From positions 62,001-126,000 of the forward strand of contig CATKHK010000113.1 in the NCBI GenBank assembly GCA_949751835.1: a DNA stretch of 64,000 bases, in the 5' to 3' direction. Origin of the DNA: Blepharisma japonicum. Its lineage: Eukaryota > Ciliophora > Heterotrichea > Heterotrichida > Blepharismidae. Positions 11,126 through 39,534 of the stretch are shown here, one piece after another. How positions within the stretch are numbered: the stretch's first letter is position 1; every line of letters begins with the position of its first letter. The position numbers were made by a program, and so were the translations under genes. Under the pieces are notes generated by a model that saw only the letters and a program-made list of their open reading frames with translations, was not told the origin of the DNA and did no database searches.

Positions 11126-11152
11126 TTACTTGAGTTTATTAAAGTAAACACT

Positions 11153-12238: not shown

Positions 12239-12348
12239 CTACTCCTGGAGAGTTTCCTGTTGGGACTACTCTCTTCTCAAACTACCTTAGGGAGATTTAT
12301 AAGTTAAAATTTTAATTTTTTATATGTGTTGAAACATTTAATTACATA

Positions 12349-13035: not shown

Positions 13036-13161
13036 TGGGTAATGAATCTTTGCTAATCTTTATGCAGTTTTAGTTTAGTTTTTATGAGTTTATCGTGCTC
13101 GAAATTGCAAAAATAATACTAAATTTTAATTTAGTTTATTTGCACAATATTATAATAAAGC

Positions 13162-14283: not shown

Positions 14284-15569
14284 TTCTCAGCACATTTATA
14301 GCTTCTTAATATTCTTAAATTCAATTATAAATAGCACCTAAATATTTTTAAGCATACCAATTTATTTTTATATTGTGATTTTAACTATTTTATACTATAT
14401 AAGGTATATATTTTATTTTTATTGCAATCTGCGAAATTGGGTGTAAGTCTTAAGGGTGAGGCGAAAAAAAAACTGATGGATTTTTTCTGCCTCACCCAAA
14501 TCTTAAAGGTTTATTCAATTTCATAGTGGCGGCGCGCAGAAATTAACATAGATTGACATTATAAGTTATGCGAAAATTCCAACTGTATTTTGATTATCCG
14601 AAAAGGCTCGTTGTTGCCCCTAAATCTGCTATATCTTGGATTAGAAAAAATAAGAGTCTCCCAGATAGATGATGGCATAACTAATTTTGACTAAAGTAAT
14701 AGTTACCAGAATCATATGTATATTTTAAATCTATAGATAATAGATACTTTGAATACTCAGAAAGAGCCTTTGAGACAAAATATGATTTCAATAAAAAGAA
14801 ATTTGAGACAATAATAGCATTTCACACGGTATAGACTCAAAATAGCATAAAGTATAACACACAACATAGGATATGACATAATGCATGGCAGACAGCGTGA
14901 TATTGCGCACATAGCACGATACCTAGCATGCGATACAGCACATGGAATCGCAAATTTAATAGCGCAAGACGTAGAATTCAGTATATCTCACAACATAAAG
15001 CATAGTATAGTACGCAGCATGATCCGCGATGGCATAAAAAAGGGATGATAACGATGATTGGAGGCAGATATTAGAAGAAGGGAAATTGAGAATGAAGATT
15101 AAAAATAGCACAGAAATAAATAAAGAAACGAATATTAGAGAAGAAGGAATTGGAAGAAGATTAAGAAACAGAAGAAAAGAAGAAAGAGAATGAAAATTAA
15201 AATGAAAATGAAGGTTAAAAAAGATAGCCGTAAGATTGTCTAGCAGGTTGCACCTGCTTAAGTTAAACAAAACGTAGAATTATAATGCAATTATGTAGTA
15301 TTAATTTGCTTTTATAGAAAATTCATTAATATAATTAATCAAGTCAGCGCCCCAAAGTTTAAATTGCATTCTATTTAGAAAAATCTAATTATTTTTGTTC
15401 AAATTATTTTACATGAGTTTTGCTAAAGTCAACTCCTATATTATATATCAGGAGATTAATTTACGCTGAGATTTTGGGCTTAGTTATTAGTGCGGTTATC
15501 TTGTTCAAAATTTCAAAAGTAAGCTTAAATTTCAATTTAATATATATGTTCAAACTATTAATGTAAATT
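14284..15569 (+). other. Intergenic; A-type upstream repeat and low-complexity insert
   Basis: No gene. ~14540-14770 is the family-A upstream repeat. ~14800-15050 is a simple-sequence region of imperfect short units built on AGCATA, AGCACGATAC and GCGCA-type words, followed by a purine-rich tract to ~15230 (GAAGAAAAGAAGAAAGAGAA). A small minus-strand open frame here is just the complement of the purine tract. Confidence 0.5.
14800..15230 (+). repeat. Low-complexity repeat and purine-rich tract
   Basis: The first part is a decayed array of ~10-15-bp units around AGCATA/ACACAACATA/GCACGATAC; the second is a ~170-nt almost pure A/G strand. Both look unlike the surrounding AT-rich spacer and are missing before A3 and A8, so they entered this copy of the upstream region. 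Confidence 0.5.
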
Positions 15570-16663
15570 ATGGCAGAGCTATATTTAGAAACGCAAAGGA
15601 TAAGAATTCAAGAATTTGAAAAAATGCTAGTAGGTTTATCGATGAATGACTCTAGTCGCTACGGTGAGCTCCAAGCTGAGTTCAATACTCTTGCCGCTTT
15701 ACCGAAAAACATAAAGAGCATGATTAATATTAATAAAAAAGATCTTCTAATTCAAAGCTTATTTTGAGACTTTACCAATCAATGTCGCATTACTCAATCA
15801 TTATTGACTAAAATAATTTTTGAAATTCACAAACAAAATTATAATAACTCTTACAACTTAAATTTCAATTACCTTTACAATAATGACGAAAATCTAAAAG
15901 GAACAGAAATTTATGTTTATGATATAAACATCAAACACAAACATCCACATTAAGATTTAAATCTTATGCTTCAGATATACGTCTATGTGATAGAATAATG
16001 GACTGTTTTAAAATTTCAAATTCGCATTTACTTATTATAGGAGCTAATGAATATAAATATAATGGATTTTTAATGGATCTAAAGACCAAAGCAATAAGCG
16101 AGATGTTTAATTTTGCAAGCCAAAAACGAGCAAAGCATATTTTCAATCAGTTTATTTATTATGATAATTGCTTATTTGTATTTGGGGAATTAAGCAGCTC
16201 AGGCTTGATGAAATATAACATAAATCAGAATAGGTTGAAGAGATTAGCATTCCCGCGAACGAATGAAAGAATTTTTTCAGTTCTTTTCCATAACTATGTC
16301 TTAATAAGTTTTTATACAGATTCTAGCTTTTATTTATATGACCTTTTAATTGAAGCTCATTCAGAAATTACATTTTATAATCGTGTGAGGAATCGTAAAT
16401 TTTTATTTACTGATCAAGTAAGGGTTTATTTGTGGATACAAAATAATTCTATTTATGAAAGTGATGTAAATAACCCATTTATATGAAATCTCATAGGAAA
16501 TAATGATTTTGGAATTAATTATTCACCTTATGATATAACTTTCAGCAATTTTGAAGGAAATATTTATATTAGTTTTATTGTGAGACCTCAAATGCTATGC
16601 TTTAAATTTAATAGAGAAAGAAAAGAAATGGAATTAATTTACCAAGGGGAAGTTGATAGATAA
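15570..16663 (+). pseudogene. Family-A copy A6 with a single frameshift
   Basis: The N-terminal half is open from ATG 15570 through a TGA=Trp at 15765 to ~15930. The remainder is open in another frame to TAA 16661. At ~15925 the sequence is GATATAAACATCAAA where sisters have GATATAAAACATCAA, so one A is missing from a homopolymer. All other family landmarks, including the FLFTDQVRVYLWIQ signature, are present. It is either a very young pseudogene or a sequencing/assembly error in an intact ~364-aa gene. Confidence 0.65.
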
Positions 16664-17007
16664 TTTAATTAAATAGCTTAATCAAAATGATCCAATGATC
16701 ATAATTTAAATTTAAAAAAATTTAAGTTAGGTCCTTGCATCTTCCAATATTATTCAAACATTTTATTTATAATCTGTAATGGACCTCTATTAATCAGTAT
16801 ATTCAATTTTTTAAGGTTCCAAGTTGCACTTAAAACTTGTGTCAGCTAACTGGGATTCAACAATCTAGTCTAATAGCATGCTAGATTGACAATTCTAGAA
16901 TGAGCTAGAATAGTATAAATAGAAACAATTATAATTAATTAAAGTCAAAGGACAATAATCGCAAATCTCTTTGTATGTATGATGGGATAAGATGGTTATA
17001 ATAAAGT
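16664..17007 (+). other. Intergenic spacer between A6 and A7 with dispersed repeat, copy 3
   Basis: No gene. ~16795-16900 (AAGGTTCCAAGTTGCACTTA, ...GTGTCAGCTAACTGG) matches the dispersed repeat at 7190. The usual family-A promoter block is not obvious before A7. Confidence 0.4.
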
Positions 17008-18084
17008 ATGGCAGATTTAATTTTAGGTAAGAAAACAAAGAAAATAGAAAAAATTAGAATTAGTCTTGCTGCTTTGCATATAAAAGATTATAGCACCCTC
17101 AGTCAGCTTCAAGACGAATTTAAAGAGCTATCTGCTTTGCCAGCACATATCGTGGATATGATCACCAAAAATAAAAATAATCCTCGAGTTCAATGTATGT
17201 ATCAAGACTTTAAAAATAAATGCTTCACTACTCGAGTTATGTTTGCCCGATTCCTTTTTAAAATTCACAGAGAAAACTATAGTACTCATTACAATTCAGA
17301 TTTCAACTATCTTTACAATGATTCAGAAAACCGAAATGGAATAGAACTTTATATATACGATTTAAAAACTCATAAAAGAACTTCTACATTAAAGTTACAT
17401 AATTGTCGCAAAAATCATAGTTTATTAGATCAAATAGCGGGAATTATCAAAATTGCAAACTCTCATTTATTTATCATCGGGAATAACCATAAAGGATATT
17501 TAATGGAACTAAAAAACAAAGAAATAAATCTTTGGCTGGATTTTAATTATGATGACTTTAGATTTGATAAATCAAGGCACTTTGTTTATTATGATAATTG
17601 TATATATATTTTTTTTGGTGCAGGATTGATGAAGTATGACTTAAATCGGCAAAAATTAAAAAATATTTCATTTCCTTCTTTGATGGGAAGAGTTTTTACT
17701 GTTATTTATCATAAATATATTTTAGTAACCAGTTTTTGAAGTTCTAAATTTTACCTATATGATTTTACAATAGAATCTTGCTCAGAAATTACATTTTTAG
17801 AGGATATGAAAGGCAGAAAATTTTTATTTACTGACCAAAAGAGGGTTTATTTGCTTATGGAAAACAACTCTATTTATGAAAGTAGTTTAAATAATCCCTT
17901 TAAATGAAAGATAATAGGGAATTTGAATTTTGGAACTCATGGTTCACCTAATAATATAACTTTTAGCAATTTTGAGGGAGATATTTATGCTAGTTTTATT
18001 GAGAAACCAGAGATGTATTGCTATAAGTTTAATAAAAAAAGAATAGAAATGGAATTAATTTATCAAGGGGAAGTTAGTTATTAA
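17008..18084 (+). CDS. Family-A kelch-like protein, copy A7 (divergent)
   Basis: 358 aa, intact through TGA=Trp at 17737 and 17905, stop TAA. The most diverged intact member: it opens MADLILGKKTKKIEKIRISL, has basic replacements through the N-terminal domain, and its blade segment reads CIYIFFGAGLMKYDLN. It keeps the C-terminal signature in altered form (FLFTDQKRVYLLMENNSIYE, NNPFKWKIIG). It may be the oldest copy at the array edge. Confidence 0.75.
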
Positions 18085-19869
18085 GCTGATTTCAATTATC
18101 TTACTATGTTTAAACATAATTTACGCGTTTTTAATAGTTATAAAATTCAGCTGGTAAGATTTTTAAAAAATTAAAAGTCATTCCTGCTATTATTTAGATA
18201 CTTATAACTTTAGTTTATGATAGTTATATGTTTGGCTAGTTATGAAATACTTTTTTATTCATTTCATTCCATATTGATAGGCAATTTTTAGTATATTAGG
18301 TACTTTAATAAGATATTTTATACTTTCGGCTAAATAAAAATAATTATTCAGAATAATTTATATATAGTAAATCAAATAAAAATTAAATGTTGCTAAGTTT
18401 AAATTCCGATTGAAAGACGCTATATCAATTTATGATATTTTTCCCTTTACATAATTTGCATTGTTTACTGAGCATTCGTGAAATGTTTAATGCTGAATTA
18501 AATGTGTATAGGAGTTTTAAAGATCTCAGAAATAAAATATTTGCAGGATATTGACAAATTATATAATTTACTACAGATGCTGCCTATTATTGTGACTTCC
18601 TGCTTTAAAAATTTTTGGTAACAATTTTAATAAATTTATGAACTCTAATTGTAAATTTTCTCTTTTGATGGTGTCTAAATTCAAGTTCTATTTGTCTTTA
18701 TGATACTTTGGCTTGCTTGAGAAGAGTCTAAAAAAAGCAGGATTTAAACTTGGAAAAGTCAGAAAAATAATAAGTTCGAAAATATTCGATAAAATGGAAA
18801 AGAGAGTGGCCAAAGGATTTTAAAATCGAGAGAATGTACACCATTGACATTGACAAATTTGAGCTAGATGGTTAAGCTATTATATAATTTTCAGCATATA
18901 GATAAATTTTTTACCCTTTATATAAATCTTGCTAAATTTTCCAATTTTTTTAAGATATAATTACAATAAAATGCAATATAGATAATTTTTGATGTGATCA
19001 TTTTATGATTTTCAAATCGATAATTTTAAATAAATTACTTAATATTGCTATGAGCTCAATAAGAATCTTATAAATTGCATTTATGTTGTTTCATATTAAA
19101 GATTAATAAAATTTATGTGCTACAAAAAATTTTTGCAAGACATCTTAAATAAACTAATCTTAAATATATAATTTTAGAAAATTTAAAAATTATTATTTCA
19201 TGATTTTTATACAGAATGATATAGGAAATATTAATTTGACTTATATTGCGAAGGCCAAAAATTCAGAAAACACTAAATATTAAGCATTTTTTCTTTTTTT
19301 TATTTTCATCTTTATAATTTCCAATATGTAAAAAGCAAAAAATTTTGATTCAATACTGAAAAGATAATATCTCAAATCTCTTAGAAGCAAGTTCTATTGC
19401 AAGTGTAATAAAAATTGTATAGAAATTTTGAAATATCCTTAGAGTAAATTATGCGATTACTCACTAAAAGAAAATGTCAAATAAAAGTAAAATTAAATAA
19501 TAAGCATCTAAGTATTATTTTTATTTTATAATAATTATATCTTGGATTATACTGGAATAAATTTTTTAATTTCGCACAACTATTTAGTTGGCAATAATTA
19601 TTTAAATTTTTTATCATCTAATTCCAAAAATTAAATGGTCATTTTGTTTATATAAGAGGTCCAAGAATTTATTTAAATTTGCCTGCAGAATATTTTTGCT
19701 ACACAATATATATAAAAATTCAATTATTTGCCTATTCATTCAAATATATAATTACAATTTTAGACTATTTGTTGAATTATTATTTATATTTAATTTTTTA
19801 ACTATTTTTGTATAGCTTCCTCATCTCCACATTCATAACTTAAACCTGTTCATGCATTATTATCATAAT
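18085..19869 (+). other. Intergenic between the two arrays; contains a decayed cyclin-like copy
   Basis: Very AT-rich. ~18468-18875 is a decayed cyclin-family copy (separate entry). ~19370-19869 resembles the region upstream of B3 (shared AATATCCTTA..TAAATTATG, CTATTTGTTG and CTATTTTTGTATAG/TATTATAG words). No other gene was found. Confidence 0.45.
18468..18875 (+). pseudogene. Decayed cyclin-Y-like copy
   Basis: Stretches match the family in order: ~18470-18520 corresponds to SLSEECLMLTLMYVLRVLK, ~18520-18565 to ISEIKIFAG-WQII, then ~18725-18875 to the C-terminal KLGKVRKIISS..., ERMYTIDIDKFELDG and a TAA. The middle of the cyclin box is missing or unreadable and several frames are used. Oldest-looking member of the array, on its left edge. 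Confidence 0.6.
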
Positions 19870-19887
19870 ATATTGTATAATAAAAAT
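19870..19887 (+). promoter_or_regulatory. Conserved start-proximal block of cyclin-like genes
   Basis: ATATTGTATAATAAAAAT stands directly against the ATG of B1 and is identical before B3 (26561-26578). B2, B4, B5 and two decayed copies have TATA-rich variants ending AAAAATATG or AAAAATGG. The conservation fixes the start codon and suggests a core promoter or leader element. Confidence 0.5.
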
Positions 19888-20637
19888 ATGTTTAATAGCT
19901 ACCATAAAACGGCAATAACTCAGCTTGAGTATGTATCAGGTCATAATAAAATTTATCCATCATTAGAAGACCTAGCAGTCGGATTTTCATTTGTGCTCCA
20001 TGCAAAAATCATTGAAGACTTTGAGTCCAAAGGCAGCAGCCATTCTCCGAAAAATGAAACATTTTTCAATAGAAACCATCTGCTGAGCTATTTAAGTTCA
20101 GATTTAAAAGACATCCCATCAGCTAATGAGATTTTTTCATTCACGTTTAATTTATATAGCTCACTTGGCCCCAGCGAGGAATGCTTGATGCTGACTTTAA
20201 TGTACGTCTTAAGAGTTTTAAAGACTTCAGAAATAAAAATATTTGCAGGCAATTGGCAAATTATTATAATTGGTGCTACCCTGACTTCGCTAAGGGTTTG
20301 TGATCCAGCCCACTACTGTAACTTACAGCTTAAAAACCTTTTAGTAGTATTAAGTCATGATGAAATTTTTGAGCTTAATGATGAGTTTTCTTGCTTAATG
20401 GAATCTAAATACGAGGTCGATTTATCCTTTTTTGGAAGATGCCTTGATATTTTGGCTTATGCCTGGGAAGAACAGTCTGAAAAGAAATGGAAATTAAACT
20501 TGGAAAAAGTCAGCAAAATTATAAGCAGGTCTAAGACTTTTGATAATGCAGAAGAAGATGAAGAGGATAGCCAAAGAATTATTAAGAGTGAGAGATTGTA
20601 CAGTATTAATCTCGACCAATTCGAATTAGATTATTAA
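19888..20637 (+). CDS. Cyclin-Y-like protein, copy B1
   Basis: 249 aa from the ATG that follows the conserved AATAAAAAT block; an in-frame ATG at 19852 lies inside that block and is less likely. Residues ~85-215 form a cyclin box closest to cyclin Y: SEECLMLTLMYVLRVLKTSEI, then FAGNWQIIIIGATLTSLRVCD, then NLQL...FELNDEFSCLMESKYEVDLSFF. Cyclin Y recruits PFTAIRE/PCTAIRE CDKs at membranes, but the usual N-terminal myristoylation glycine is absent and KVWDD is replaced by RVCDPA. The C-terminus ends ERLYSINLDQFELDY, shared by all members. Its 3' flank is nearly identical to that of the broken copy at 22651. Confidence 0.75.
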   Translation: MFNSYHKTAITQLEYVSGHNKIYPSLEDLAVGFSFVLHAKIIEDFESKGSSHSPKNETFFNRNHLLSYLSSDLKDIPSANEIFSFTFNLYSSLGPSEECLMLTLMYVLRVLKTSEIKIFAGNWQIIIIGATLTSLRVCDPAHYCNLQLKNLLVVLSHDEIFELNDEFSCLMESKYEVDLSFFGRCLDILAYAWEEQSEKKWKLNLEKVSKIISRSKTFDNAEEDEEDSQRIIKSERLYSINLDQFELDY

Positions 20638-21568
20638 GCCATTTTATCAGCATAAACAGTATATCTAATTATTTTTTTAACTTTGGCAAATTTAATCAAT
20701 ATGCTAGAAACTTGATAGTTAAACTTATTTTGTTTTTTAATGAATAGTTTATAAGTGCAAATATTGCTAACTGTATGATGATATTAAAGACATTTAAAAC
20801 CGATTACAAAAAATTATCGAAAATTTCTATGAATTCAATAATAGGTATTTTGCAGTTATAAATTTGTGCTGAATGCTTATTAAATGACAAAGGAATTTAA
20901 ACAATTTAAAATTTTACTGAGTCATTTTGGGACTGATTAATCTACTACGAGAATTGCAAATTATCTATAACCCGTGGATGTCTTTCTATAAGTTTTAGAG
21001 AAAGAACAGATTGGATTTTTATCAAAGGTGATTAAATGAATTACTTTTATAAATTATTAAACATTCTCTTTCTCTATAAATTTCCTATTGCTTTCTCAAA
21101 TATCTTAATTTATAAATATCAAAGCTCGCGTAGTTATATAGATTGAGTATCAATTTTAAAGGCTTCAGGCTCTTTCCTAGTATGAACGCCATGTGGAAAT
21201 TAACTACCTTTTCTTAGCATTATGCTATAAATTATGCGAAAATAATAATGACATTTTTATTATCAAAAAAAGGCTCAATCGTGCCCGTAGTCGGTACCTG
21301 TGTCATGGTTTGGAAGAAACAAGAGTCTCTCTGATGGATGATGGTATCACTAATTTTGACTAAGTCCTTAGCAGAATCAATTGCATTTTTTTAATCTTTA
21401 GATAATAAGCACAGCAAAATCTAATTACTTTTGGTTTTAATAAATTTCTATGTTATAGCAGTATATAAAATTTTATTTAGATCCATGCTGGCATTTCGAG
21501 CTTGGTTCGATTTTTCAAAATAAGCTTAATTTTATTTTAGTATATGTGTCGAAATATTTAATTACATC
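20638..21568 (+). other. Intergenic; duplicated 3' flank, family-A relic and A-type upstream repeat
   Basis: 20638-21060 is ~420 bp shared with 23158-23560. Inside it, ~20945-21030 carries a worn piece of a family-A 3' end (TATAAGTTTTAGAGAAAGAA beside TGGATTTTTA, compare CYKFNRERKEMEL). ~21175-21455 is the family-A upstream repeat serving A8. No gene. Confidence 0.5.
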
Positions 21569-22633
21569 ATGGCGTATGAATATTTAGAAGCGCAAAGGAT
21601 CAAAATTGTAAAATTTACAAAAATGCTTGAATGTTTATGTATAAACGACTTTAATCACTTTAGTCAGCTCCAAGCCAAGTTTAATTCTCTTTATGATTTA
21701 CCAAAAATCGTAGATAAAATCAATATTTATAAAAAAAATCCTAACTTCGTCAATCAATGTCGCATTACTCAATCATTATTAAATAAAAAAATTTTTGAAA
21801 TCCGCAACAAAATTTCTTGAAATTCAGACTTCAATTACCTTTACAGCCATAATGAAGAAGAATGAGAAACAGAAATTTACATTTATGATATAAAACATCA
21901 AGCAATGACCTCAACATCAAATTTTAGAAATTACGAACCTAATAGAAGTTCATGTTGTTGAATAGTGAACTATATTAAATTCTCAAATTCGCATTTGCTT
22001 ATTATAGGAGCTAATGATCATAAATTTAAAGGATTTATAATGGAACTAAAAACCAAAATAATAAGTGAGATGTTTACTATTAGAAGAAAAAAGCAACCAA
22101 AAAATTATTGATTTAATGAGGTTATTTATTATAATAATGATTTATATATATTTGGAGAATTAAGTGACTCAGGCTTGATGAAATATAACATAAATAGGAA
22201 GAAAGGGCAGAAATTAGTGTTCCCACGAACGACTAGAGCAATTTATTCAGTTCTTTTTCATGACTATGTCTTAATAAGTTTTTATTTGAATTCAAGCTGT
22301 TATTTATATGATCTTTTAATTGAAGATTATTCAGAAATTACATTTCATGAAGGTGGGGAAAATCGTAGGTTTTTATTTACTGATCAAGTGAGGGTTTATT
22401 TGTTAAAGCAAGACGGCTCTATTTATGAAAGTGGCGTAAACAATCCATTTAAATGAAATATCATAGGGAAGATTGATTTTGGATTTCGTAATTGACCTTC
22501 GCGAATGAATTTCAGCAATTTTGAAGGAAATATTTATTTTAGCTTTTTTATGAAACCTTATATTAATTGCTATAAATTTAATAGAGAAAGAAAAGCAATG
22601 GAATTAATATACCAAGAAAAAATCAATTCATAA
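21569..22633 (+). CDS. Family-A kelch-like protein, copy A8, inside the cyclin array
   Basis: 354 aa. It looks broken under the standard code but is fully open with TGA=Trp (21818, 21863, 21958, 22109, 22454 and 22492). Closest relative is the dead copy A4 (same leader, MAYEYLEAQRIKIVKFTK start, same NFRNYE/SEMFTIRRKK middle). It carries the blade-like LYIFGELSDSGLMKYNI and FLFTDQVRVYLLKQ signature. It sits 3.5 kb from A7 between cyclin-like genes and brings its own upstream repeat, so it was moved or copied as a unit. Confidence 0.75.
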
Positions 22634-24112
22634 TTTAATGAATAATTTAAGGAAATGCTATCATTCAAGTTTAATTTATATAGTTTACTGAGCCTCAATG
22701 AAGAATGCTTGATGCTGACTTTAATGTACGTCATAAGAGCATTAAAGATTTCAGGAATAAAAATAATTGCAGATAATTGGAAAATTATTATAATTGGTAC
22801 TACCCTGACTTCGCTAAAGGTTGTAATCTAGACCTGCTACTGTAACTTGCAGCTTTAAAACCTTTTAGGAGTATTATATCATGATAATATTTTTGAGCTT
22901 AATGATGATATTTTCTCGCTTAATGGAGTCTGAATATGAGGTCGATTTATCCTTTTTTGGAAGATACCTTGATATTTTGGCTTATACCTGGGAAGAAAAG
23001 TCTGAAAAAAAATGGAAACTAAATTTAGAAAAAGCAAGAAAAATTATAAGCAGATCTAAGACTTTTGATAAAGCAGAAGATGGAGAGGATAGCCAAAGAA
23101 TTATTAAAAGTGAGAGAATATACAGTATTAATCTCGATCTAATTTGAGTTTGATTATTAAGCCATTTTGTCAGCATAAACAGTATAGGTAAATTATTTTT
23201 CTAATTTTGGCAAATTTAATCAATATGTTATAAATTTGATAGTTAAACTTATTTTGTTTTTTAATGAATAGTTTATAAGTGCAAATATTGCTAACTGTAT
23301 GATGATTTTAAAGACATTTAAAACCGATTAAAAACAATTATCGAATATTGTTACGAATTCAATAAGTGGTATTGCAGTTATAAATTTGTGCTGAGTGCTT
23401 AGGAATTTCACAATTTAAAATTTAATTGAGAGTCATCATGGGATTGATTAATCTACTACGATGAATTGCAAGCTATCTATAAGCTATGGATACCTTGTTA
23501 TAAGTTTTAGAAAAAGAAAAGAATGGAATTTTTAGCAAAGGTGATTAAATGAATTACTTTAATAAATTTTTCTATTTTATAATTTAATTCTATGATAATT
23601 ATTAAATCTGATTTTGCCTGAATTGATAATGCTGGCTTAAATTTTTTTAACTTTCTTCTCCTCCACAAACTTTATAACTATAACTGGTATGCTTTATTTA
23701 AAATCGTTTTCTTATTACTTTATTTAAGGACTCTAAATGGTGATGCTGATATAAAAAAAAAGTAAAAATTTAATAGAAATTTATATGCAAATAATTTTTG
23801 ATTTTTTGCTTTATATTTTGACTTTGAATAATTTTAGTCAATGATTTCTTCTAATGAAAGCTTATAATGATAGAATTAATCGATCTAAAAATAAAAAGCT
23901 TTACAGCTCACACCACATTTAATCATTTTCGTTTAAATTTAATATTTCACCTCTTCGATATATAAATGAATTTACTTAATATGATTTTACTGAACAATTA
24001 TTGCCATTTATATTTTTTATTTATTTTTATTATGAATTTCCTAATCTCGATAGATTTTTTATTCCTTAAAGCTTGCTCATTTATTATTATAAAATATTTT
24101 ATAATAAAAAAT
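22634..24112 (+). other. Intergenic around a truncated cyclin-like copy
   Basis: 22651-23158 is a cyclin-like pseudogene. 23158-23560 is the 3' flank shared with B1, with a family-A 3' relic at ~23455-23545 (TTGTTATAAGTTTTAGAAAA, AAAGAATGG). The rest, to B2, resembles the DNA before B4 (29270-29832), showing a segmental duplication. Confidence 0.5.
22651..23158 (+). pseudogene. 5'-truncated cyclin-Y-like copy, sister of B1
   Basis: Starts abruptly 17 bp after the A8 stop with MLSFKFNLYSLLSLNEECLM, so the first ~75 codons are gone. The cyclin-box middle is frame-shifted near 22820-22880 and the final ~88 codons are open again (SRLMESEYEVDLSFFGRYLD... to ...IYSINLDLI). Sequence and 3' flank are nearly identical to B1, so the break is recent. 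The A8 duplication probably landed in or replaced its 5' part. Confidence 0.7.
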
Positions 24113-24856
24113 ATGGTAAGTAATTTCAACTCACAAACTAAATTACAACAGCTTGAGAACTTTCTAAATACAAATGAAATTTATCCAACCTTGGAAGACT
24201 TGGCTACTGGATTTTCATTTGTCTTACATGCAAAAATCATTGAAGACTTTGAGTCAAAAAGCAGCACTAAATCTCCGATTAGTGAAATTTTATTTAATAG
24301 CAGCCACCTGTCGAGCTATTTAAATTCGGATTTAAAAGATGTTCCACCAGTTAATGATATATTTTTATTCACCTTTAATTTATTTCACTCGATAAGTCTG
24401 AGCGAAGAATGCTTGATGCTTACTCTTATGTACATATTGAGAGTTTTAAAAGCAACAAAAATAAAAATATTTGCCAACAATTGGCAGATAATTGTAGCTG
24501 GCGCAACTTTGGCTTCTATGAGGGTGTGCGATAGAGCCAATAATTGTAACTTACAGTCCGAAAATTTTTTTACTGAATTAAGTTTTGATGACATTTTTGA
24601 GCTAGATAGTGAATTTTCTCGCTTAATGGAGTATAAATACGAGGTAGATTTGTCTTTCTTCGAAAGATGCTTTGAACTTTTGGCTTATACCTGCGAAGAA
24701 AAGTCAAAAAAGTGGAAATTAAATTTGGAAAAAATCGACAAAATAATAAGGAGATCAAAGACTTTTGGTGAAGTAGAAGATGAGAGTATTCCAAGAATTA
24801 TTAGGAGCAAAAGAATTTACAACATTGATCTTGATCAATTTGGGCTTGATAATTAA
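24113..24856 (+). CDS. Cyclin-Y-like protein, copy B2
   Basis: 247 aa from ATG 24113 (MVSNFNSQTKLQQLENFLNT); the frame stays open upstream to 23966, but that hydrophobic stretch is the AT-rich promoter region translated and B4 lacks it. The cyclin box spans ~85-215 with SEECLMLTLMYILRVLKATKI, FANNWQIIVAGATLASMRVCD and ELDSEFSRLMEYKYEVDLSF. The Lys and Glu typical of CDK-contacting cyclins are best represented by RVLK and the EL..EF helix. Forms a recent pair with B4, ~90% identical by eye. Confidence 0.78.
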   Translation: MVSNFNSQTKLQQLENFLNTNEIYPTLEDLATGFSFVLHAKIIEDFESKSSTKSPISEILFNSSHLSSYLNSDLKDVPPVNDIFLFTFNLFHSISLSEECLMLTLMYILRVLKATKIKIFANNWQIIVAGATLASMRVCDRANNCNLQSENFFTELSFDDIFELDSEFSRLMEYKYEVDLSFFERCFELLAYTCEEKSKKWKLNLEKIDKIIRRSKTFGEVEDESIPRIIRSKRIYNIDLDQFGLDN

Positions 24857-26578
24857 AATTATGGTATTAATTGAATAGTAATATGGTCTTTTTTAACTTT
24901 CAAATTCATTATCAATATGCTAGAATTGTGATAAGTGGTCAGAATTTGATTTTATTGAATATTAGTTGCTTCTAAATTGAAATATAATTAAATTTTAGCG
25001 TGAAAAATCTGTTTGAATAAAATTGATATTTTTAAATTATTATTATTCAATATTTATAAAAGTTTAATAAGGGTTATATAATATATAAAATTTTGACAAT
25101 ACTTAATAAGGATTTCAAATTTTAATTGCCTTAAAATTTAATAAAGCCATATAAGTAGGCATCTTTATTAGATTTAGCACAGGGATAAATTCAAGAAAAA
25201 TTCTGATTACTCGTTCAAAGAAGGGATTTTATTGTCGAATTTCATTTGCATTGAAAAAGCTAAAAATTATAAAGCTTCAATTTTAATTTTGATTAAAAGT
25301 TTTTTTACACCTTAAAAGCAAAAAATTTGCATTCTTTGATTTATAATGATTAATAATGTGCCTCACGACTATCCTAAATAATAAGGAAATTGTTTTTTTA
25401 CAGTTTATTTACGAGGTTTTAAAGCTTTCATATAATTCAAAGCCATGAAATTTTTTTGCTTTCATATGATAAACTATATATTAAAAATTCCTTGTGTTGA
25501 CAAAATTAATTATTAAGGAATATCGCTTTTTTACGTAAATATAATATCATGGCTTAATATCAACAGGATTAGGGTGTCATCCACATATCAAATTTATTGA
25601 GTTAAATAAAATTAAATTCTTTTATAATTTAAGAGCTTATTTCAAATAGTTTTACTACATTATATTTACTATTATATTGTAAATTTTAAACACTTTTTTT
25701 AATAATTTTCTTAATTTTCATATGTCTTTAATTCCATCAAGTTTGTTCATTTATTGCTCGCATATGGTTTATAATAAAAATATGATAAGCTTGAAGGATC
25801 AAGAAATTGACAAAATCCAGTTCGAGAGCTTTATAAATGCATTGTTCAGATTTGTTTTAATGTTACATTCAAATATCATTGAAAATTTTGATTCTAAAGG
25901 TAGCACGAATTATAAATATTTTTCAATAGAAACCATTTGATAAGCTACTTTAACTGAAATATTTCTAATATTTCTTAGAAACCAAATTCTGTTTTAGTCA
26001 GAAAGAGATTTATTTAAGAACTCAAAATATCCTTAAATTAAATTATGTGCTACTTTGATAAAAGAAAATGACAATCTAATGTATATATTGAAGTGCATGC
26101 AAGAGTTACACAAAATTAATGAAGATAATAAATTTGAATTATTTACAAAAATATTCTTCATATAACGTTAAAATAATAAAATCTAAGAATTCTTTTTATT
26201 TTTTAACGGATTTTAATGGATCGATAAACCTTTTTTACTGCAATATTTTTATTTAAAAAATATTTTCTTATTGTCTAATTTCAGAGTTTTTTTTGTATAA
26301 TAATTAGAAAATTTATTTCAATTTCATATGTTGGTAATTTTCCTAATATATCCTGATTACTTCTAGTATCAATAATTATCAAAAAAATTAAGGATCCACT
26401 CATTCAAGAATTCAATCATTGTCCACATATTCACTTATATAGCTATAATTTAGAATATTTGTTGGATTAATTCCAATTTATATTTTTAAACTATTTTTAT
26501 TATAGTTTCCTTAATATCCACACCCTTTACCTGGATCTGTTCACTTATTATTTATCTAGTATATTGTATAATAAAAAT
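24857..26578 (+). other. Intergenic; duplicated flank with decayed cyclin-like copy
   Basis: 24857-25690 is alignable with 30577-31330 (GGCATCTT...GAAGGGATTTT...CAAATTTCATTTGCATTG). A short decayed copy starts at 25782. ~25975-26578 resembles the B1 upstream region. No other gene. Confidence 0.5.
25782..25985 (+). pseudogene. Truncated cyclin-Y-like copy
   Basis: ATGATAAGCTTGAAGGATCA opens 5' coding sequence that keeps FRFVLMLHSNIIENFDSKGS, the family segment before the cyclin box. It has lost the YPSLEDLA part internally and ends after FSIETIW near 25942. The cyclin box is absent. It corresponds position for position to the decayed copy at 31749. Confidence 0.6.
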
Positions 26579-27319
26579 ATGTCAAATAGCTACCAAAAAA
26601 CTGAAATAGCTCAGCTCGAGGATGATCCAAGTCAAAATGAAAACTATCCTTCATTAGAAGACCTAGCAATTGGATTTTCAAGTGTCCTTAATGCAAAAAT
26701 GATTGAAGACTTTGAGTCCAAAAATATTAGTCATCCTTCGAAAAGTGAAACATTTTTCAATAGAGATCATCTGCTGAGCTTTTTAAATTCAGATTTAAAA
26801 GACATTCCATCAGCTAATGAGATTTTTTCATTCACGTTTAATTTATACAATTCACTGAATCTCAGCGAGGAATGCTTAATACTGACTTTAATTTACACAC
26901 TAAAAGTTTTAAAGACGTCAGAAATTAAAATATTTTCAGGAAATTGGCAAATTATTATAATTAGTGCTACCTTAACTTCACTGAAGGTTTGCGATTCAGC
27001 CCACTACTGTAACTTACAGCTTGAAAACTTATTGACAGTATTAAATTATGACGAATTTTTTGAACTTAATGATGAGTTTTCTTACTTAATGGAGTCTAAT
27101 TATGAGGTTGATTTACCCTTCTTTGAAAGATTTCTTGATATTTTGGCTTATGCCAGGGATGAAAAGCTTAAAAAGAAATGAAAACTCAACTTAAAAAAAG
27201 TCAAGAAAGTTATCAGAAGGTCTAAGATTTATGATGAAGTAGAAGAAGAGAGCGGCCCAAGAGTCTTTAAAAGTGAGAGAATGTACAGCATTAATCTTGA
27301 CCAATTTGAGCTTGATTAA
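26579..27319 (+). CDS. Cyclin-Y-like protein, copy B3
   Basis: 246 aa, intact; TGA=Trp at 27179 (KKKWKLNLKKVKKVIRR) hides the C-terminal 46 residues under the standard code. Start is the ATG next to the conserved AATAAAAAT block. Cyclin box: SEECLILTLIYTLKVLKTSEI, FSGNWQIIIISATLTSLKVCD, FELNDEFSYLMESNYEVDLPFFERF. The C-terminal ERMYSINLDQFELD motif is retained. Closest to B1, with related upstream DNA. Confidence 0.77.
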
Positions 27320-27837
27320 TAAGCATATAGTGCCAGTTTAATTAACTATTGATAAAATTTTTTTAACTCGGCAATTTAATCAATTTGATAGAAACTCATA
27401 GCTAAGTTTTTTTTTTTTTAAATATAGATATCCTTAAATTTAAACGTAGATAGGCTTAGTTTGATAATTTTGAAAAAGTTTTAACCTATTTTTCGAATAT
27501 TACTATAAATTCAATAGATGGCCTTGTAGTTATACATTTGTGCTGCATACTTATTAAAGTTCAATATCATCATAAGAAACTTTAATTGAGAACCTAAGCA
27601 GTCATTTGACACTGATAATCTATTATGATGGATTAATTTTAGAAATTCTAGAAGTATTCTATTTTCCATTTTCAAGTTCGTTTCTAAAATTATTTTATCT
27701 TATATTTGGACTTAAATTCAGCGGATTTTAGTTTTGTCTCCTCCTCAATATTACCATGAGCATTTTGCAACTAAAATAAAGATATAAATATAAATAATAT
27801 TTTAACTAAAGAGTGCACTTTAAAGGCATAAGAGAGC

Positions 27838-28060
27838 TTGCTTTTTCTTTACTGATCAAGTGAGTGTTATTTTTGATAGAAGTAACTATATTTAAGAAAT
27901 AAAGGTATTTTAATCATTACAAATAACTCTATTTGTGAGATATAAAATAAATGTAAAATGATAGCTTAAATTTATGAATTGGTATGAAATTATGCTAGTT
28001 ATCTTACAAGCTGTAGATGCTTTGATAAGTTCTAGAGAAAGTAAGTAATGGTCAAAAGCA
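27838..28060 (+). pseudogene. Family-A 3'-end relic
   Basis: TTTTCTTTACTGATCAAGTGAG reproduces the FLFTDQV signature, followed by a worn AACTATATTTAAGAAA (compare NSIYES) and, ~100 bp on, GCTAGTTATCTTACAAGCT...TTTGATAAGTTCTAGAGAAA (compare YASF...CYKFNRER). It shows that family-A genes once sat downstream of B3 as well. Confidence 0.55.
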
Positions 28061-28149
28061 GCTAAACGATTTGCTTTAAGAAATTAGAAATATTTTTCTT
28101 TCTATTTTAATCACCTAGGTTTATCTCGAATATGTTAAATTATCAATAC

Positions 28150-28860
28150 TAAAAACCAAGCGTAAAAGTTTTGTATAAATTTTATAATTTTTAATGTTTT
28201 CTATGTCGGTTTTATTATTGAAGCAAAGCGCACTTATTGCACTGAGTGTTAGCGCTCTTTAAGGACTTTTTAGCTTCTTTTTATTTTCATCCTTTCTATA
28301 GATCTAAGAATTTTAAAATGACAGTGTTCTATTCCTTTGATGATCTTAAGAAAATCAGCCTAAGTCTTCTATAAATGTTTTTGGTATAAATTCTCTTGGC
28401 GAATACAGTGGATAGCATTTTCTCTATTTCGGCTTTATTGCATCTGAGCATATTCTCTAAGGCAGACTCCAGTGTCAAAACAAAGAATTATAAATTTGAG
28501 GCTGCGATTTTTCTAGAAAACACACAAGCCATAAATTTGGTTCTTTTGTTCATCTCTTTCTTCCTTTCTTCTTCTGTTTCTCCTCAGAAATCTCGAGATC
28601 CCAATTTTAATGCATATCCACTAATTTCGCTTTGTCAAAAATAGTTAGCGCTTTTTGGAACTATAAATCTGAAGAAGGCATCGTGCTTACTGAGTCTCAT
28701 AACTGGATAGAAGCAACTTTAACTGCTTTAAGGCTTACCTTTCTTATTCCATTAATGGCAAATAAAAGTAATGACTTATATCAGCAAAAATTTCATATTA
28801 AGTGTTCTAATGATTATAAATTCTTAAATTTCCTTGAATAAATAATATTTAAATGTCAAT
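28150..28860 (-). pseudogene. Unidentified decayed gene, possibly cyclin-like
   Basis: On the minus strand one frame reads IRKVSLKAVKVASIQLWDSV, faintly like the cyclin-Y helix NWKRIVLGAILLASKVWDD, followed by FQKALTIFDKAKLVDMH and NWDLEISEEKQKKK. Stops interrupt it and the neighbouring parts are unreadable. The match is short and could be chance; the main support is the base composition, which is less AT-rich than the spacer. Confidence 0.22.
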
Positions 28861-29832
28861 ATGTTTATCTTGCTTACTTTTGAGCAGCCTGAGCTTAAGG
28901 CTTAGAAAATTAGATCAATTTCAACTTGAATTCAAGAGTAACCTCAGTAGATACATTGTTAGGTAGATATTCTCATTTTCCTGTAATCTTTAATGAGAAA
29001 ATTAGCAATCTGCTTTCAAACACTATGCAGCTATTTAGGCTTAGCACAAGAAACATTTTTTCAGCAACTATTAAACTTCAAGAAGGTAGAAACTAATCCC
29101 ATTGCTAATCGCAATACAGCAAAATTCATAAGCCGTTCACTTCAATTTGAAACTTGAATACCTTACTTGCAAGCTTCCTAGATTTTTGGGCTAAGTGATC
29201 AGAAATTAGATAAGTCTTAATATGAAAACTTATTGATGATTTTATCACCAATATGACGAACATTATTTTTAATAGTTGGTTAATTTCCTTGAATATAAAT
29301 CACTCTATTTTATATATTTGATTCTATAATAATTTTGTCTAGTTTTGATTAAATTGGAAATTCATTTTATTTTTATTTTCTCATAACTTTCTTCAGATAA
29401 GATAAATCCTTTTCGCATTTCTATCATTACGCATATATATATTTAAAATTGTTTTCTTACCACTTAATTTAAGTACTCTTAATATTGCTGATATTCAAAT
29501 TAACTAAAAAATGTATTATAATGTTATATGGTAAACAATTTCTGGTTTTTCTTTTATATTAAAGGTTTAGGATCATTTTAGTTAAAGATTTTACCTAATA
29601 AGAGCTTATAATGATAAACTCAATCATATAAAAATCTTCCACAGTGCATTTAGTTATTTTCACTTAAATTTTAATATTTTCCCTTTCGAAATATAAATTC
29701 ATTTACTTAAGATGGCTTTACTGAACAATTATTACCATTTATATTTTTAATTGCCTTTTATTATGAACTTCTAATCTTTGATAGGTAATTTATGCTCATT
29801 TGTCATTATAAAATATATATATTATAAAAAAT

Positions 29833-30576
29833 ATGATAAGTAATTTGAACTCAAATGCTAATTTAGAACAGCTTGAGAACTTTCTAAATACAAATGAAGT
29901 TTATCCACACTTGGAAGACTTGGCTATTGGATTTTCATTTGTCTTGCATGAAAAAATCATTGAAGACTTTGAGTCAAAAAGCAGTTCTATATCTCCGGTG
30001 AGTGAAATTTTATTTAATAGCAGCCACCTGTCGAGCTATTTAAATTCAGATTTAAAAGATGCTCCACCAGTTAATGATATATTTTTATTTACTTTTAATT
30101 TATTTCACTCGATAAGTTTGAGCGAAGAATGCTTGATGCTGACTCTTATGTACATATTGAGAGTTTTAAAAACAACAAAAATAAAAATATTCGTCAACAA
30201 TTGGCAGATAATTGTAGCTGGAGCAGCTTTGGCTTCTATGAAAGTGTGCGATAGAGCCAATAATTGCAACTTAAAGTGTGAAAATTTTTTTACTGAATTA
30301 AGTTTTGACGATATTTTTGAACTAGATAGCGAATTTTCTCGCTTAATGGAGTCTAAATACGAGGTCGATTTGTCCTTCTTCAAAAGATGCTTCGAAATTT
30401 TGGCTTATACCTGCGGAGAAAAGTCAAAAAGTTGGAAATTAAATTTGGTAAAGGTCAACGAAATTATCAGGAGGTCAAAAATTTTTGATGAAGTAGAAGA
30501 AGAGAGTTATCCAAGAATTATTAGGAGCCAAAGAATGTACAACATTGATCTTGACCAATTTGGGCTTGATAATTAA
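29833..30576 (+). CDS. Cyclin-Y-like protein, copy B4
   Basis: 247 aa, intact, TAA stop. MISNLNSNANLEQLENFLNT at the start and ERCFEILAY-type ends make it the close sister of B2. Cyclin box with SEECLMLTLMYILRVLKTTKI, FVNNWQIIVAGAALASMKVCD and NLKCENFFTELSFDDIFELD. Most differences from B2 are single residues, which suggests constraint after duplication. 5' and 3' flanks are also shared with B2. Confidence 0.78.
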   Translation: MISNLNSNANLEQLENFLNTNEVYPHLEDLAIGFSFVLHEKIIEDFESKSSSISPVSEILFNSSHLSSYLNSDLKDAPPVNDIFLFTFNLFHSISLSEECLMLTLMYILRVLKTTKIKIFVNNWQIIVAGAALASMKVCDRANNCNLKCENFFTELSFDDIFELDSEFSRLMESKYEVDLSFFKRCFEILAYTCGEKSKSWKLNLVKVNEIIRRSKIFDEVEEESYPRIIRSQRMYNIDLDQFGLDN

Positions 30577-31343
30577 ATTGTTGTATTAATTTAATATGGT
30601 CTTTTTTAACTTTTAAATTCATAATCAATATGCTATAATTTTGATATGTGGCCAGAATTTCATTTTGCTAAATATTAATTTTTCTAAAATTGAAAAATAA
30701 TAAAATTCTAGTATAAAATTTTGGCAATAATAATAATTAAGGATTTCAAATTTTAATAGCCTTAAAATTTAATAAAGATATATAAGTAGGCATCTTAACT
30801 CAAATTAGTGCAAGGATGAATTTTGATAAATTTCTAATGCTTCTTTTAAAGAAGGGATTTTGCTGTCAAATTTCATTTGCATTGGAAAAAGCTAAAAATT
30901 ATAAAATTTCAATTTTAATTTTGGCTAAAAGTGTTTTGCTAAGCCTTCAAAGCAAAAAATTTTCAATGTAGTATTAATGATGTGTCTCACAATTCTCCTA
31001 AATAGTAAGCAAATTTTTTCTCATTAAAGATTTAAGAAGCTTTAAAGCTTCCATATAATTGAAAAATAAAAAGTTTTTAGCATTTATATAATAAAATATA
31101 TCTTAAAACTTCTAGTGCTAACTATTAAGAAATTTCACTTATTTAAGTAATTATAGTAGCATGACTTAATCTCAAAAAGATTAAGATACTCATCCAAACA
31201 TAAAATTTATTGATTTAAACAAAATTAATTTCTTTTATAATTTAAGAGCTGCTTAATTAGAATGGCTTTATGCATCATATTTACTATCAATTGCACTTTA
31301 TATTACTTTTTTATTATAATTTTCTTAATTGTCATTCGTATTT

Positions 31344-31697
31344 AGATTAAATTAAGATTAATGCCTTGATCTGCAGCCCCTCTTCTTAGTATCATGCTCT
31401 TAGTAGCATTGGCTTCAGGGAGGGGCCTATCGTCACTTATAAGGAGAAACCCTTGGCTTCTCTATAGATGCAATTCTCTCCTGATTTCAGATCATACGAA
31501 ATTTCCAGAACCTCCATTTCCAGCACAAGCATAAGCATTGCCTAGCTTTCCAAGCATTCATCTCTCGGAAAACCAAATCTAGACCATAAATCAGCAAAAA
31601 AAAATAGCTCTATATTTTTGTCCTAAGACTACCCATCCTTTGGGCATCTACTTGCAGAAACAATCTGTATAAGATATCCTATACTAAGAGTACGGTA
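31344..31697 (+). other. ~350-bp insertion, candidate IES or mobile fragment
   Basis: In the sister segment, TCATATGTCTTTA runs straight into ATTCCATCAAGTTTG. Here, TCATTCGTATTTA and ATTCTATCAAGTTTG are separated by ~350 bp that is clearly less AT-rich (for example AGGGAGGGGCCTATCG). The junctions read TTTA|GATT and CGGTA|ATT, so a TA could be the target site, as for ciliate internal eliminated sequences. No terminal inverted repeat is obvious. The minus strand has a short coding-like stretch (LVLEMEVLEISYDLKSGENC), so captured genic DNA is an alternative. Confidence 0.5.
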
Positions 31698-31748
31698 ATT
31701 CTATCAAGTTTGCTCACTTATTATGATACTATAGTTTATAGTAAAAAT

Positions 31749-32196
31749 ATGAAAATCTTCAACGATCAAGAAATTGAAAAAATCTAGTTCAATCACTTTT
31801 TAAACGAAAATGAAGTTTATCCTTCTTTAAAAGACCTAACAGCCAGATTTTCTTTTGATGCTAAATCCAAAAATCATTGAAATCTTGGGCTCGGATTCTT
31901 CGAAAAAATTAAATATTTTTCAATAGAAGCCATCTGATGTGCTACTTAAGCTCAGATTAAAAAGACGTTCATTAACTAATGAAATTTTTAATTTATATCA
32001 CACTATGGCCTAAATGAAAAATGATTGATGCTGACTTTTGGTTTGAATATTCAAACTTTTAAAAAATACAGAGATTATCCCAAAAATTGGAAAATAATTA
32101 ATTGTAGTTAGAAAAACTTAAAAAGACGAGAGTAGTAAGAAATTATTAAATGAGAGAATATATCATTGACTTTAACAATTTGAATTTAATAATTAA
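31749..32196 (+). pseudogene. Decayed cyclin-Y-like copy
   Basis: ATGAAAATCTTCAACGATCA matches the start of the 25782 copy. NENEVYPSLKDLTARFSF, the FNRSHL-type segment, LNEK-LMLTF and a terminal ERIYHxF-xFEFNN then TAA are recognisable in order, but in several frames with stops and with most of the cyclin box lost. More complete than its sister at 25782, so the two copies have decayed independently. Confidence 0.65.
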
Positions 32197-32384
32197 ATCA
32201 ATATATTAGAATTTAGACCTAAAACAATTTTTTTATAAAAGCTCTAATATAAATTGACTTCAATTTAAAATCCCAATTAAATTTCAATTAGAAAATTTAT
32301 GCTGACCTCTCTTTCTTATTAAAAAAACCCTGGGAATATCCTCTCTGGTCTGTTAAATGAGTGAAATTAAGTCCATTCTGAATT

Positions 32385-32452
32385 AAAGCTCAGGGAGCTT
32401 TACAAATGTAGTATTAATATCGAAAGAAAAATTGCTATGCAGCTGATGATAA
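32385..32452 (+). pseudogene. PP2C fragment
   Basis: CTCAGGGAGCTTTACAAATG...GTATTAAT...AATTGCTATGCAGCTGATG aligns with 35088-35152 of the intact PP2C gene 2.7 kb downstream (SGSCANVVLIVGDNCYVANV). Only this ~65-bp core is clear, and it is the reason to infer an older duplicate of the phosphatase gene. Confidence 0.6.
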
Positions 32453-33055
32453 GCGAACATAGGAAGTAAAATTAAAAATCATTCCTTTGTTAGGTATTAT
32501 CTTTTTTTTATAAAATTTATCGTATAATAATTGCGTATATCTTGCTTGTAATATCTAATATTTATTCAAATGTTTATTTTATTTTATCCCTGATCAAATA
32601 GGAATTTTTAACATATTGCATGGCCAGTAATTAGAAATTTTAATTACAAATATGATTCTTATAACTTTTTAGGGGCTTTACTGGCATACTAATAATATTT
32701 TAAAATTAAGAGTCTATCTGTATTCATAAAATAAACAATTTTGACCCTTTTTCTTTAAAATTTCTCACTATTGCACAATTGAGTATACATTCATTCCAAA
32801 ATCAACATTAAATAGCGATATGACTAAATTTGCAAAGGTTTAAGCAGCAAAGTCTATAGTTAATTTAATAGTTTTATAAATTTATCAAAATTAAAACTCT
32901 ATTTAAATATAACTGTTTATTGGTTTCAAAAAATCCATCCTTGCTGCTATTTTCATATTTTATGCATATTTTTTATTATAACTTGCTTATCTGCTACATG
33001 CCTTTTATTTCATCAAGATTGCTCACTTATTTTTATAACGCACTGCATAGTAAAA

Positions 33056-33802
33056 ATGGTAAGCATGAGCTGTAAAATAACCGAAAGAATTCAATCCGAA
33101 GAAATTCAAAATGAAAATGAAGTTTATCCTTCGCTAGAAGACCTAGCAGCTGGATTTTCATTAGTAATTCATGCAAAAATTATTGCCGACCTTGAGTCAA
33201 GAACCAACACTGATTCTCCCAAAAATGAAATCTTTTTCAATAGAGACCACTTGATGAGCTTTTTAAATGCAAATTTGAATGATACTCCATCACCAAGTAA
33301 AATCTTTTCGTTTACTTTTAATTTATATCACTCGATGAGTCTGAATGAAGAATGCTTGCTGCTTACTTTAATGTACATGCTAAGATTTTTAAAAGCAACA
33401 GAAATAAAAATGTTTGCCAATAATTGGCAAATAATTGTAATTGGGGCAACTTTAACTTCTCTAAGGGTTTGTGAGACAACCCGCTGTTGTAACCTACAAT
33501 GTGAAAACATTTTCTTTGGCTTAAGTTTTGATGATTTTTTTGAAATAGACGGTGAATTTTCTCGGTTAATGAAGTATAAATTCGAAGTTGATTTGTCTTT
33601 ATTCGAAAGATGCTTTGAAGTTTTGGCTTGTGCCTGGGAAGAAGAGTCAAAAAAAAAAAGGAAATTAAACATAGAAAAGGTGAATGAAGTAATAAGAAAA
33701 TCAAAAACTTTTGCTGAAGTAGAAAAAGAGAGTGATTTAAGAATTGCTAAGAGCAAGAGAATATACAATATTGATCATTACTTACTTGAGCTTGATAGTT
33801 AA
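33056..33802 (+). CDS. Cyclin-Y-like protein, copy B5
   Basis: 248 aa, intact, TAA stop. Opens MVSMSCKITERIQSEEIQ, then NENEVYPSLEDLAAGFSLVIHAK. Cyclin box: NEECLLLTLMYMLRFLKATEI, FANNWQIIVIGATLTSLRVCE, FFEIDGEFSRLMKYKFEVDLSLFERCF. Its C-terminus (RIYNIDHYLLELDS) diverges from the shared ...INLDQFELD end. Upstream it keeps the CATCAAG-TTGCTCACTTATT block of the array. Right-hand edge of the array. Confidence 0.77.
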   Translation: MVSMSCKITERIQSEEIQNENEVYPSLEDLAAGFSLVIHAKIIADLESRTNTDSPKNEIFFNRDHLMSFLNANLNDTPSPSKIFSFTFNLYHSMSLNEECLLLTLMYMLRFLKATEIKMFANNWQIIVIGATLTSLRVCETTRCCNLQCENIFFGLSFDDFFEIDGEFSRLMKYKFEVDLSLFERCFEVLACAWEEESKKKRKLNIEKVNEVIRKSKTFAEVEKESDLRIAKSKRIYNIDHYLLELDS

Positions 33803-38259: not shown

Positions 38260-39534
38260 TTACTGTGGCGAGGAGTCACTAGGGTCAGACTCATCCGTAT
38301 TTTCTCTCACTTCATGCTCGATTTCTGGAATTTCCACTTCCTCCTCTTTATTGCACACAAAGCACGAAAAAAAGCTTCAGCTTTTTTTGACCGAAATGGC
38401 CATAACACTTCTCCCACACTGAATCATCAAGCTTGATCCAATATCTAAAAAAATCGGTTTTTTTATCTGGACAAGCGTCCCAAACTTGCTTTCATTATCT
38501 TCCAACACCAGTTTGTCTTTAATAAGCCTTATAGTAGCATGGTTTCTTGACACAGAAATATCAGTTATCCTGATATCTGCATCATGGCCTCTCCCTAGGC
38601 GAATATTATTTTTATTAGTCATAGCTATCACATGGATAGTTCTTAAGTTGCTTCTATCTTTATTCAGATTTTCTAACACAATATAGTTAGAGTGAGGTTT
38701 TTCGAATCCTAAAAGGTCATGGGTTACGCCTTTTACGATCAGTTTATCAGGGTATTTCATCTTACAGAGCTCACATTCAAGGGTTTTCCAAGAATACGAC
38801 TTGGAATTGCTGATTTCTCTAGTTGTCACTTTGCTGGTCAATCAGTGACGTAAACAGTTTAAGTGAATTTGAGCCATTGTTCCTGAACATTTGCAAGGGG
38901 TTATAAGAGGGTCTTCTTCTGAAGCACTTTCCATAAGGCAAATTCTGCACTGTGCCTTTTCGTCAAGGCTGTTTAAACATTGGCTGCTGCCTTCAGACGC
39001 GACATCAACATTTAAGGGTTCTTCAGTAAGGACAGTTCTTTTGCGACTGCCTAGACCTCCATTGCAGATTTGGGTACATCTGAGCTCTGATTGGGTGTTT
39101 TCACTGGCGTCTTTCGAGCCATTTATTTCGTTGATTCTTAAAACAACCCTTCCGATGCGAATTATATCACCTTCTGACAGCTTATAGCCCTTTTGACCTT
39201 TGTAACCTTTAATTCCACTGACCACAAGTCACATTTTTTCGAAAGTCTGGTTTGATTCTTTATGGTTTTGGTAGGGGCGATTTAGGACAAAATTTGAGCC
39301 GGTTTGTGTGAGCATGGCCAAGACCTTGGAATTTTCTTCAGGTAATTTGGGCTCACCGTCTATATTATCTGTAGTAATTTGGTCTTGTGTACGGATTATT
39401 CAGCAGGGACCTGTGGCTTTGAAATTTCTTTTAGCTAAATTTTTAGTTTCGTAGTCAAAGAGACCATGGGAGTCTCGATTCCAAGTAGAAACTTGAAATT
39501 CGACGCTATGTAATGGATACCTTATGTTTGACAT
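38260..39534 (-). CDS. RINGv (RING-CH) and FHA domain protein, probable E3 ubiquitin ligase
   Basis: 424 aa; the frame runs through TGA=Trp at 39416, 39228, 38839 and 38377 to a TAA. N-terminal third contains an FHA-like start (LSEGDIIRIGRVVLRI, ~118-135). RING-CH at ~196-260: CRICL, CKCSG, HLNCLRHW and CELCK, the C4HC3 order of MARCH-type ligases. A full FHA domain lies at ~311-381 (IRLGRGHDADIRITDISVSRNHATI, with the R, S and N-H phosphothreonine-binding residues). An acidic tail ends the protein. No TM helices, unlike most MARCH proteins. Suggests a ligase recruited to phospho-Thr proteins. Confidence 0.85.

Follow-up and report, generated by a model that had tools for sequence, protein, structure and literature searches.

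A tandem array of cyclin-Y-like genes, intact and decayed, in the ciliate Blepharisma japonicum

Background

The metazoan member of the cyclin Y branch, CCNY, begins with an N-terminal Met-Gly and is myristoylated. Cyclin Y is an unusual cyclin: in human cells, phosphorylation and 14-3-3 are needed for it to bind CDK16, with both Ser100 and Ser326 being required for 14-3-3 and CDK16 binding, according to the accessible part of the report (PMC4613515). A Lys and a Glu are located at the CDK interface of cyclins, as exemplified by K257 and E286 of CCNB1 in the available sections of a structural account (PMC6971155). Among unicellular eukaryotes, 22 cyclin Y or Y-like copies have been listed across species of Symbiodiniaceae, where P/U-type cyclins are expanded (PMC7686383, accessible text), and expansions of other cyclin classes have been described in diatoms and Paramecium (PMC2872877, accessible text). 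Here we describe an array of cyclin-Y-like genes in Blepharisma japonicum and compare it with these systems.

Results and discussion

Gene content of the array

The window, that is, the whole stretch of DNA that was analyzed, comprises 64,000 nucleotides of contig CATKHK010000113.1 (positions 62,001 to 126,000 of the forward strand). The initial annotation had proposed that the interval 19888-33802 contains five intact genes with a cyclin box resembling that of cyclin Y, denoted B1-B5, and at least four decayed copies. A tblastn search with B1-B5 as queries against the window (translation table 4, E<=0.01) located four decayed copies in addition to the five intact genes, all on the plus strand within 18.5-33.8 kb, so that the tandem array stands as described, with one decayed copy beginning 1.35 kb to the left of the above interval (Table 1). 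The intact genes consist of 246-249 codons, with a TAA stop in each, whereas the four decayed copies show frameshifts, stops and missing parts. The protein sequences of B1, B3, B4 and B5 are 60-86% identical to that of B2.

Table 1. Features of the array and its duplicated blocks (positions in the window)
Feature	Coordinates	Strand	Description
Decayed copy	about 18534..18869	+	C-terminal half with stops; tail ERMYTIDIDKFELD retained
B1	19888..20637	+	intact cyclin-Y-like gene, 249 codons, TAA stop
B1 unit with flanks	19714..20884	+	78% match to B3 unit 26406-27558
A7	21569..22633	+	Kelch-like gene of the A family, not of the cyclin family; inside the cyclin array
Decayed copy	about 22652..23138	+	nearest to B1; match from B1 residue 81; frameshift and stops
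Block with B2 and a decayed copy	23695..25950	+	duplication block, homologous to 29440-31947
B2	24113..24856	+	intact, 247 codons; PDB cyclin Y E=1.3e-11
Decayed copy	about 25851..25972	+	N-terminal fragments in two frames
B3	26579..27319	+	intact under TGA=Trp, 246 codons; single in-frame TGA at 27179-27181
Block with B4 and a decayed copy	29440..31947	+	partner block; extra ~0.34 kb at about 31360-31697
B4	29833..30576	+	intact, 247 codons; protein 86% identical to B2
Decayed copy	about 31776..32099	+	N-terminal and early box fragments, three frames
B5	33056..33802	+	intact, 248 codons; PDB cyclin Y E=2.3e-12, residues 77-241

Genetic code, introns and base composition

The single in-frame TGA of B3 aligns with TGG in B1, B2 and B4 and with AGG in B5. 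An exchange between TGA and TGG is found at one column in each of three families of the window (cyclin-like, Kelch-like and kinase); moreover, one TGA column is kept in all five Kelch-like paralogs and four such columns in all three kinase paralogs, the remaining in-frame TGAs being located at variable positions of the paralog alignments. This conservation, together with a TGA in the CLRHWL stretch of a RING-CH-like protein (see below), indicates that TGA encodes Trp and hence that B3 is intact, which rules out its interpretation as a pseudogene. The ciliate code with TAA and TAG read as Gln is ruled out as well because the stops of all five B genes and of other listed genes are TAA or TAG, and the in-frame TGA codons are the conserved ones. 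TAA or TAG terminates 12 of the 13 genes that we tabulated, the exception being A3, the listed end of which does not coincide with a stop codon.

Two neighboring genes that, judging by a motif, we take to be aspartic-protease-like contain candidate 15-nt GT..AG introns at the same place (44491-44505 and 47394-47408), both with an in-frame TAG; two further matches to the intron pattern near 47394-47408 do not fit. In Blepharisma stoltei, UGA encodes Trp and the introns are mostly 15 and 16 bp long (PMC9942806), and the somatic G+C content is 33.5% (PMC9942856), as stated in the available parts of these articles; the G+C content of the window is 29.3%. Taken together, these features would by themselves mark a Blepharisma as the most likely source of the DNA. 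The region 7900-34000, which encompasses both tandem families, has a G+C content of 0.266, compared with 0.313 in the rest of the window.

Relationship to cyclin Y

Sequence searches of the PDB initiated with B2 (E<=5), B5 (E<=10) and a profile of all five proteins (E<=1) identified cyclin Y (9r2i/9r2n) as the sole cyclin, with E=8.2e-16 for the profile (see Table 1 for B2 and B5). The other matched chains are unrelated, with E-values of 0.1 or worse, and the next best chain for the profile has E=0.1. The resemblance to cyclin Y that had been noticed by eye is thus borne out, and no other helical family surfaced as the best match by sequence. The aligned part of B5 is colinear with residues 170-334 of the cyclin Y chain (165 residues), with moderate posteriors in the last part, and the box motifs quoted in the initial annotation are present in B1-B5 and correspond to cyclin Y residues. 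The box of cyclin Y itself, when used as the query, retrieves from the PDB itself alone at E<=5, which indicates that the branch stands apart from other cyclins by sequence and that the link between the B proteins and cyclin Y is specific. Over 117 ungapped positions, B1-B5 share 26-29% identity with cyclin Y; for B5, identities fall on 23 of the 54 positions that are invariant among B1-B5 versus 8 of the 63 variable ones (Fisher p=0.00026).

In Pfam, Cyclin_N was reached by four of the five proteins, with E-values of 0.0016-0.09 that are all under the curated cutoff, but B1 gave no match at E<=1. AlphaFold models obtained with five near relatives in the alignment were of low confidence (pLDDT 34.8 for the full length and 42.4 for the box), and Foldseek initiated with the low-confidence box model produced nine matches at E of 4.9-9.5, with no cyclin among them and none at E<=0.001. 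Accordingly, we infer the cyclin fold from homology and not from the model. Searches for relatives yielded 113 pattern matches in viral contigs and 304 in prokaryote genomes, none of which was confirmed.

Judged by these matches, the closest counterpart of B1-B5 among the cyclins appears to be cyclin Y. We refer to them as cyclin-Y-like and not as CCNY orthologs given the absence of Met-Gly, the shorter N-terminal part without a match and the mixed residues at the position aligned with Ser326, as detailed below.

Interface residues, N-terminal part and tail

The CDK-contact Lys and Glu, equivalent to K257 and E286 of CCNB1, were placed by motif at positions 230 and 256 of the cyclin Y chain. 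The former aligns with K in B3 and B4 and with R in B1, B2 and B5; the latter, with E in all five proteins.

No B protein starts with Met-Gly (B1-B5 begin with MF, MV, MS, MI and MV, respectively), and there is no Gly after the alternative in-frame ATGs either (for B1 and B2, those lying upstream; for B5, the second one). The part that precedes the box showed no match to cyclin Y in any of B1-B5. In a search of the PDB with the N-terminal 104 alignment columns, six chains were retrieved at E<=10, of which cyclin Y alone was significant (7.7e-6), via the edge of the box only. A counterpart of Ser100 was not found, there being no match before the box and no Ser that is invariant upstream of residue 35; in B1-B5, the stretch ahead of the box is long enough to accommodate such a residue, and the alignment is compatible with one.

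At the C-terminal end, in a region aligned with moderate confidence and under the assumption of a 5-residue offset in the numbering of the cyclin Y chain, the residue aligned with Ser326 is Ser in B1 and B3 and Asn in B2, B4 and B5, and the decayed copies at 22.65 kb and 18.5 kb have Ser and Thr, respectively. On this moderate alignment, the position seems to be the clearest difference between the sub-clades. The tail, with the pattern S-x-R-x-Y-x-I followed by LD, is conserved in all five intact proteins and is present whole in one decayed copy and partially in another.

Duplication history and the adjoining Kelch-like family

Self-comparison of the window shows that the blocks containing B2 and B4 match at 84.7% over 23695-24998, 76.7% over 25084-25744, 78.9% over 25729-25837 and 73.3% over 25847-25950. 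In the same comparison, the 3' part of B1 (20124-21058) is 86.5% identical to 22648-23571. The latter region includes the decayed copy that starts less than 20 bp after the stop of A7, and the first 80 codons of this copy were probably replaced by A7.

The B4 block contains an insert (Table 1) that is missing from the sister B2 block and has a G+C content of 0.41, compared with 0.27 for 7.9-34 kb. The insert contains imperfect (81%) inverted repeats of 16 nt at 31390-31405 and 31682-31697 and has no second copy in the window. It may be an element of the mobile or germline type.

A second tandem family, Kelch-like and likewise consisting of intact and decayed copies, occupies 7964-18081 and 21569-22633. 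Of the three copies scanned against Pfam, the one at 13162 matched Kelch_6 just under the cutoff (E=2.4e-5), and those at 7964 and 17008 showed no Kelch match.

Other genes in the window

Three tandem kinase-like genes are located at 55624-63347; they have a long N-terminal part in common, and in-frame TGA codons are conserved among them. Considered as possible CDK partners, the first of these, the only one scanned, matched Pkinase (E=2.2e-20) and passed the Pfam cutoff with general kinase families only. The gene at 38260-39537 on the minus strand encodes a protein with stretches that, by eye, we take to be RING-CH-like and FHA-like, and carries the in-frame TGA at CLRHWL. The interval 3220-6675 encodes a large protein of the receptor type, in which a ligand-binding region (ANF_receptor, E=3.1e-32) is accompanied by several hydrophobic stretches.

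Selection on the copies

Nei-Gojobori estimates, which are simple pairwise values without a significance test, gave dN/dS of 0.23-0.35 for all 10 pairs of B1-B5. In the four of the 10 pairs that were split by region, dN/dS was 0.13-0.30 in the box, 0.18-0.46 in the tail and 0.37-1.05 in the N-terminal part, which is more variable and reaches about 1 in one pair. Between B2 and B4, the proportion of differing sites is 6-13% in the coding part, depending on codon position, versus 13-30% in flanks and intergenic DNA; for B1 and B3, the corresponding values are 11-24% in the coding part and 26-30% in the 5' flank. In contrast, no coding slowdown relative to B1 is seen in the decayed copy at 22.65 kb, with 11-17% differences in the former coding part and 7-12% in the 3' flank. 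Thus, low dN/dS and coding sequences that change more slowly than their flanks, unlike those of the decayed copy, suggest that the intact genes are under constraint. In the Kelch-like family, dN/dS is 0.41-0.75 (10 pairs among five copies).

Interpretation and alternatives

The proteins are homologous to cyclin Y, the array includes duplications of a block and of single genes, four copies have decayed, and the intact copies display a pattern of purifying selection. We consider it probable that the locus represents a tandem family that evolves by birth and death and encodes, in a ciliate, short cyclins with a single box that belong to the cyclin Y branch. Each protein would then bind and activate a cyclin-Y-type CDK (PCTAIRE/PFTAIRE/CDK5-Pho85-like) through the usual box contacts. 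Without a recognizable N-terminal lipid signal or Ser100 region, these proteins are predicted to be soluble activators, which would be regulated for the most part at the level of transcription or turnover and through the conserved C-terminal tail. The two sub-clades, with either Ser (B1/B3) or Asn (B2/B4/B5) as the Ser326-aligned residue, may differ in phospho-regulation.

The use of different CDK partners by different copies, which had been suggested together with expression at different stages, would be plausible. A strong switch of partner is disfavored by the retention of the Lys/Glu positions in all five proteins and the low dN/dS of the box in the four pairs, whereas the greater variation of the N-terminal part and the sub-clade difference at the Ser326-aligned residue point to some divergence among the copies.

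Stage-specific use of the copies is plausible as well, by analogy. The more definite proposal that the intact copies are cyclins dedicated to stages of conjugation and nuclear development, which would add to the birth-and-death explanation and not compete with it, is possible but should be viewed as tentative: it draws on the analogy with Tetrahymena, where 23 cyclin homologs peak at different times of conjugation, but the term 'cyclin Y' is absent from the accessible text of that study (PMC4818844). Rather doubtful is a broader scenario in which locally expanding activators of the cyclin Y type would have lost the membrane and 14-3-3 control that applies to animal cyclin Y, with a phospho-switch in the tail gained or lost by sub-clade. 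A single ciliate would then possess several variants of one atypical CDK, each under its own regulation and serving a particular stage of the life cycle or of the nuclei.

We regard as unlikely the alternative that these proteins are cyclin-fold scaffolds or adaptors that no longer activate a kinase, in an array whose growth and decay would be due for the most part to drift and unequal recombination. Such an origin would agree with a part before the box that is shorter than that of cyclin Y and unmatched, with the decay of four of the nine copies, and with the similar duplication and decay, under weaker constraint, of the adjoining Kelch-like family; yet the CDK-contact positions are kept in all five proteins and dN/dS in the box is low in the four pairs split by region. 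That the B proteins belong to a different helical family and resemble cyclins by eye only is highly improbable in view of the gulf between cyclin Y and the next PDB chain and the length of the colinear B5 alignment, for all that the Pfam matches are under the cutoff and the models are of low confidence with no cyclin retrieved by Foldseek.

Several natural ciliate copies that seemingly lack the N-terminal control part would reveal what the core module of cyclin Y does alone, and they would make it possible to examine the specialization of cyclins in a cell that contains two types of nucleus.

Comparison with known systems

Similarly to cyclin Y and CCNYL1 (PDB 9r2i, 9r2n), the B proteins contain a single box with the EC...TL.Y, NW..I and E...F stretches, and B5 is colinear with cyclin Y from the box to the C-terminal tail, with K/R and E at the contact positions in B1-B5. 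Unlike cyclin Y, in which 169 residues of the chain precede the aligned part, B5 has 76, and the B proteins have no Met-Gly, an N-terminal part that does not align, Ser at the Ser326-aligned position in two of the five cases, and five tandem gene copies.

The Symbiodiniaceae cyclin Y and Y-like proteins resemble the B array in being alveolate members of this branch but, in the accessible part of the source, the tabulated copy number is one or two for each group and column, and a tandem array is not described (PMC7686383). The initial annotation held that large local expansions of this cyclin class were not known from other eukaryotes. This claim stands for tandem arrays of the cyclin Y type, none of which is described among the matches listed in our searches of mainly openly accessible literature, but needs to be narrowed given that, in the available portions of the articles, other cyclin classes are expanded in diatoms, Paramecium and dinoflagellates. 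The diatom-specific cyclins belong to another class, and the word 'tandem' is absent from the accessible text (PMC2872877), but, like the B array, they exemplify a cyclin class that has expanded in one particular lineage of unicellular eukaryotes.
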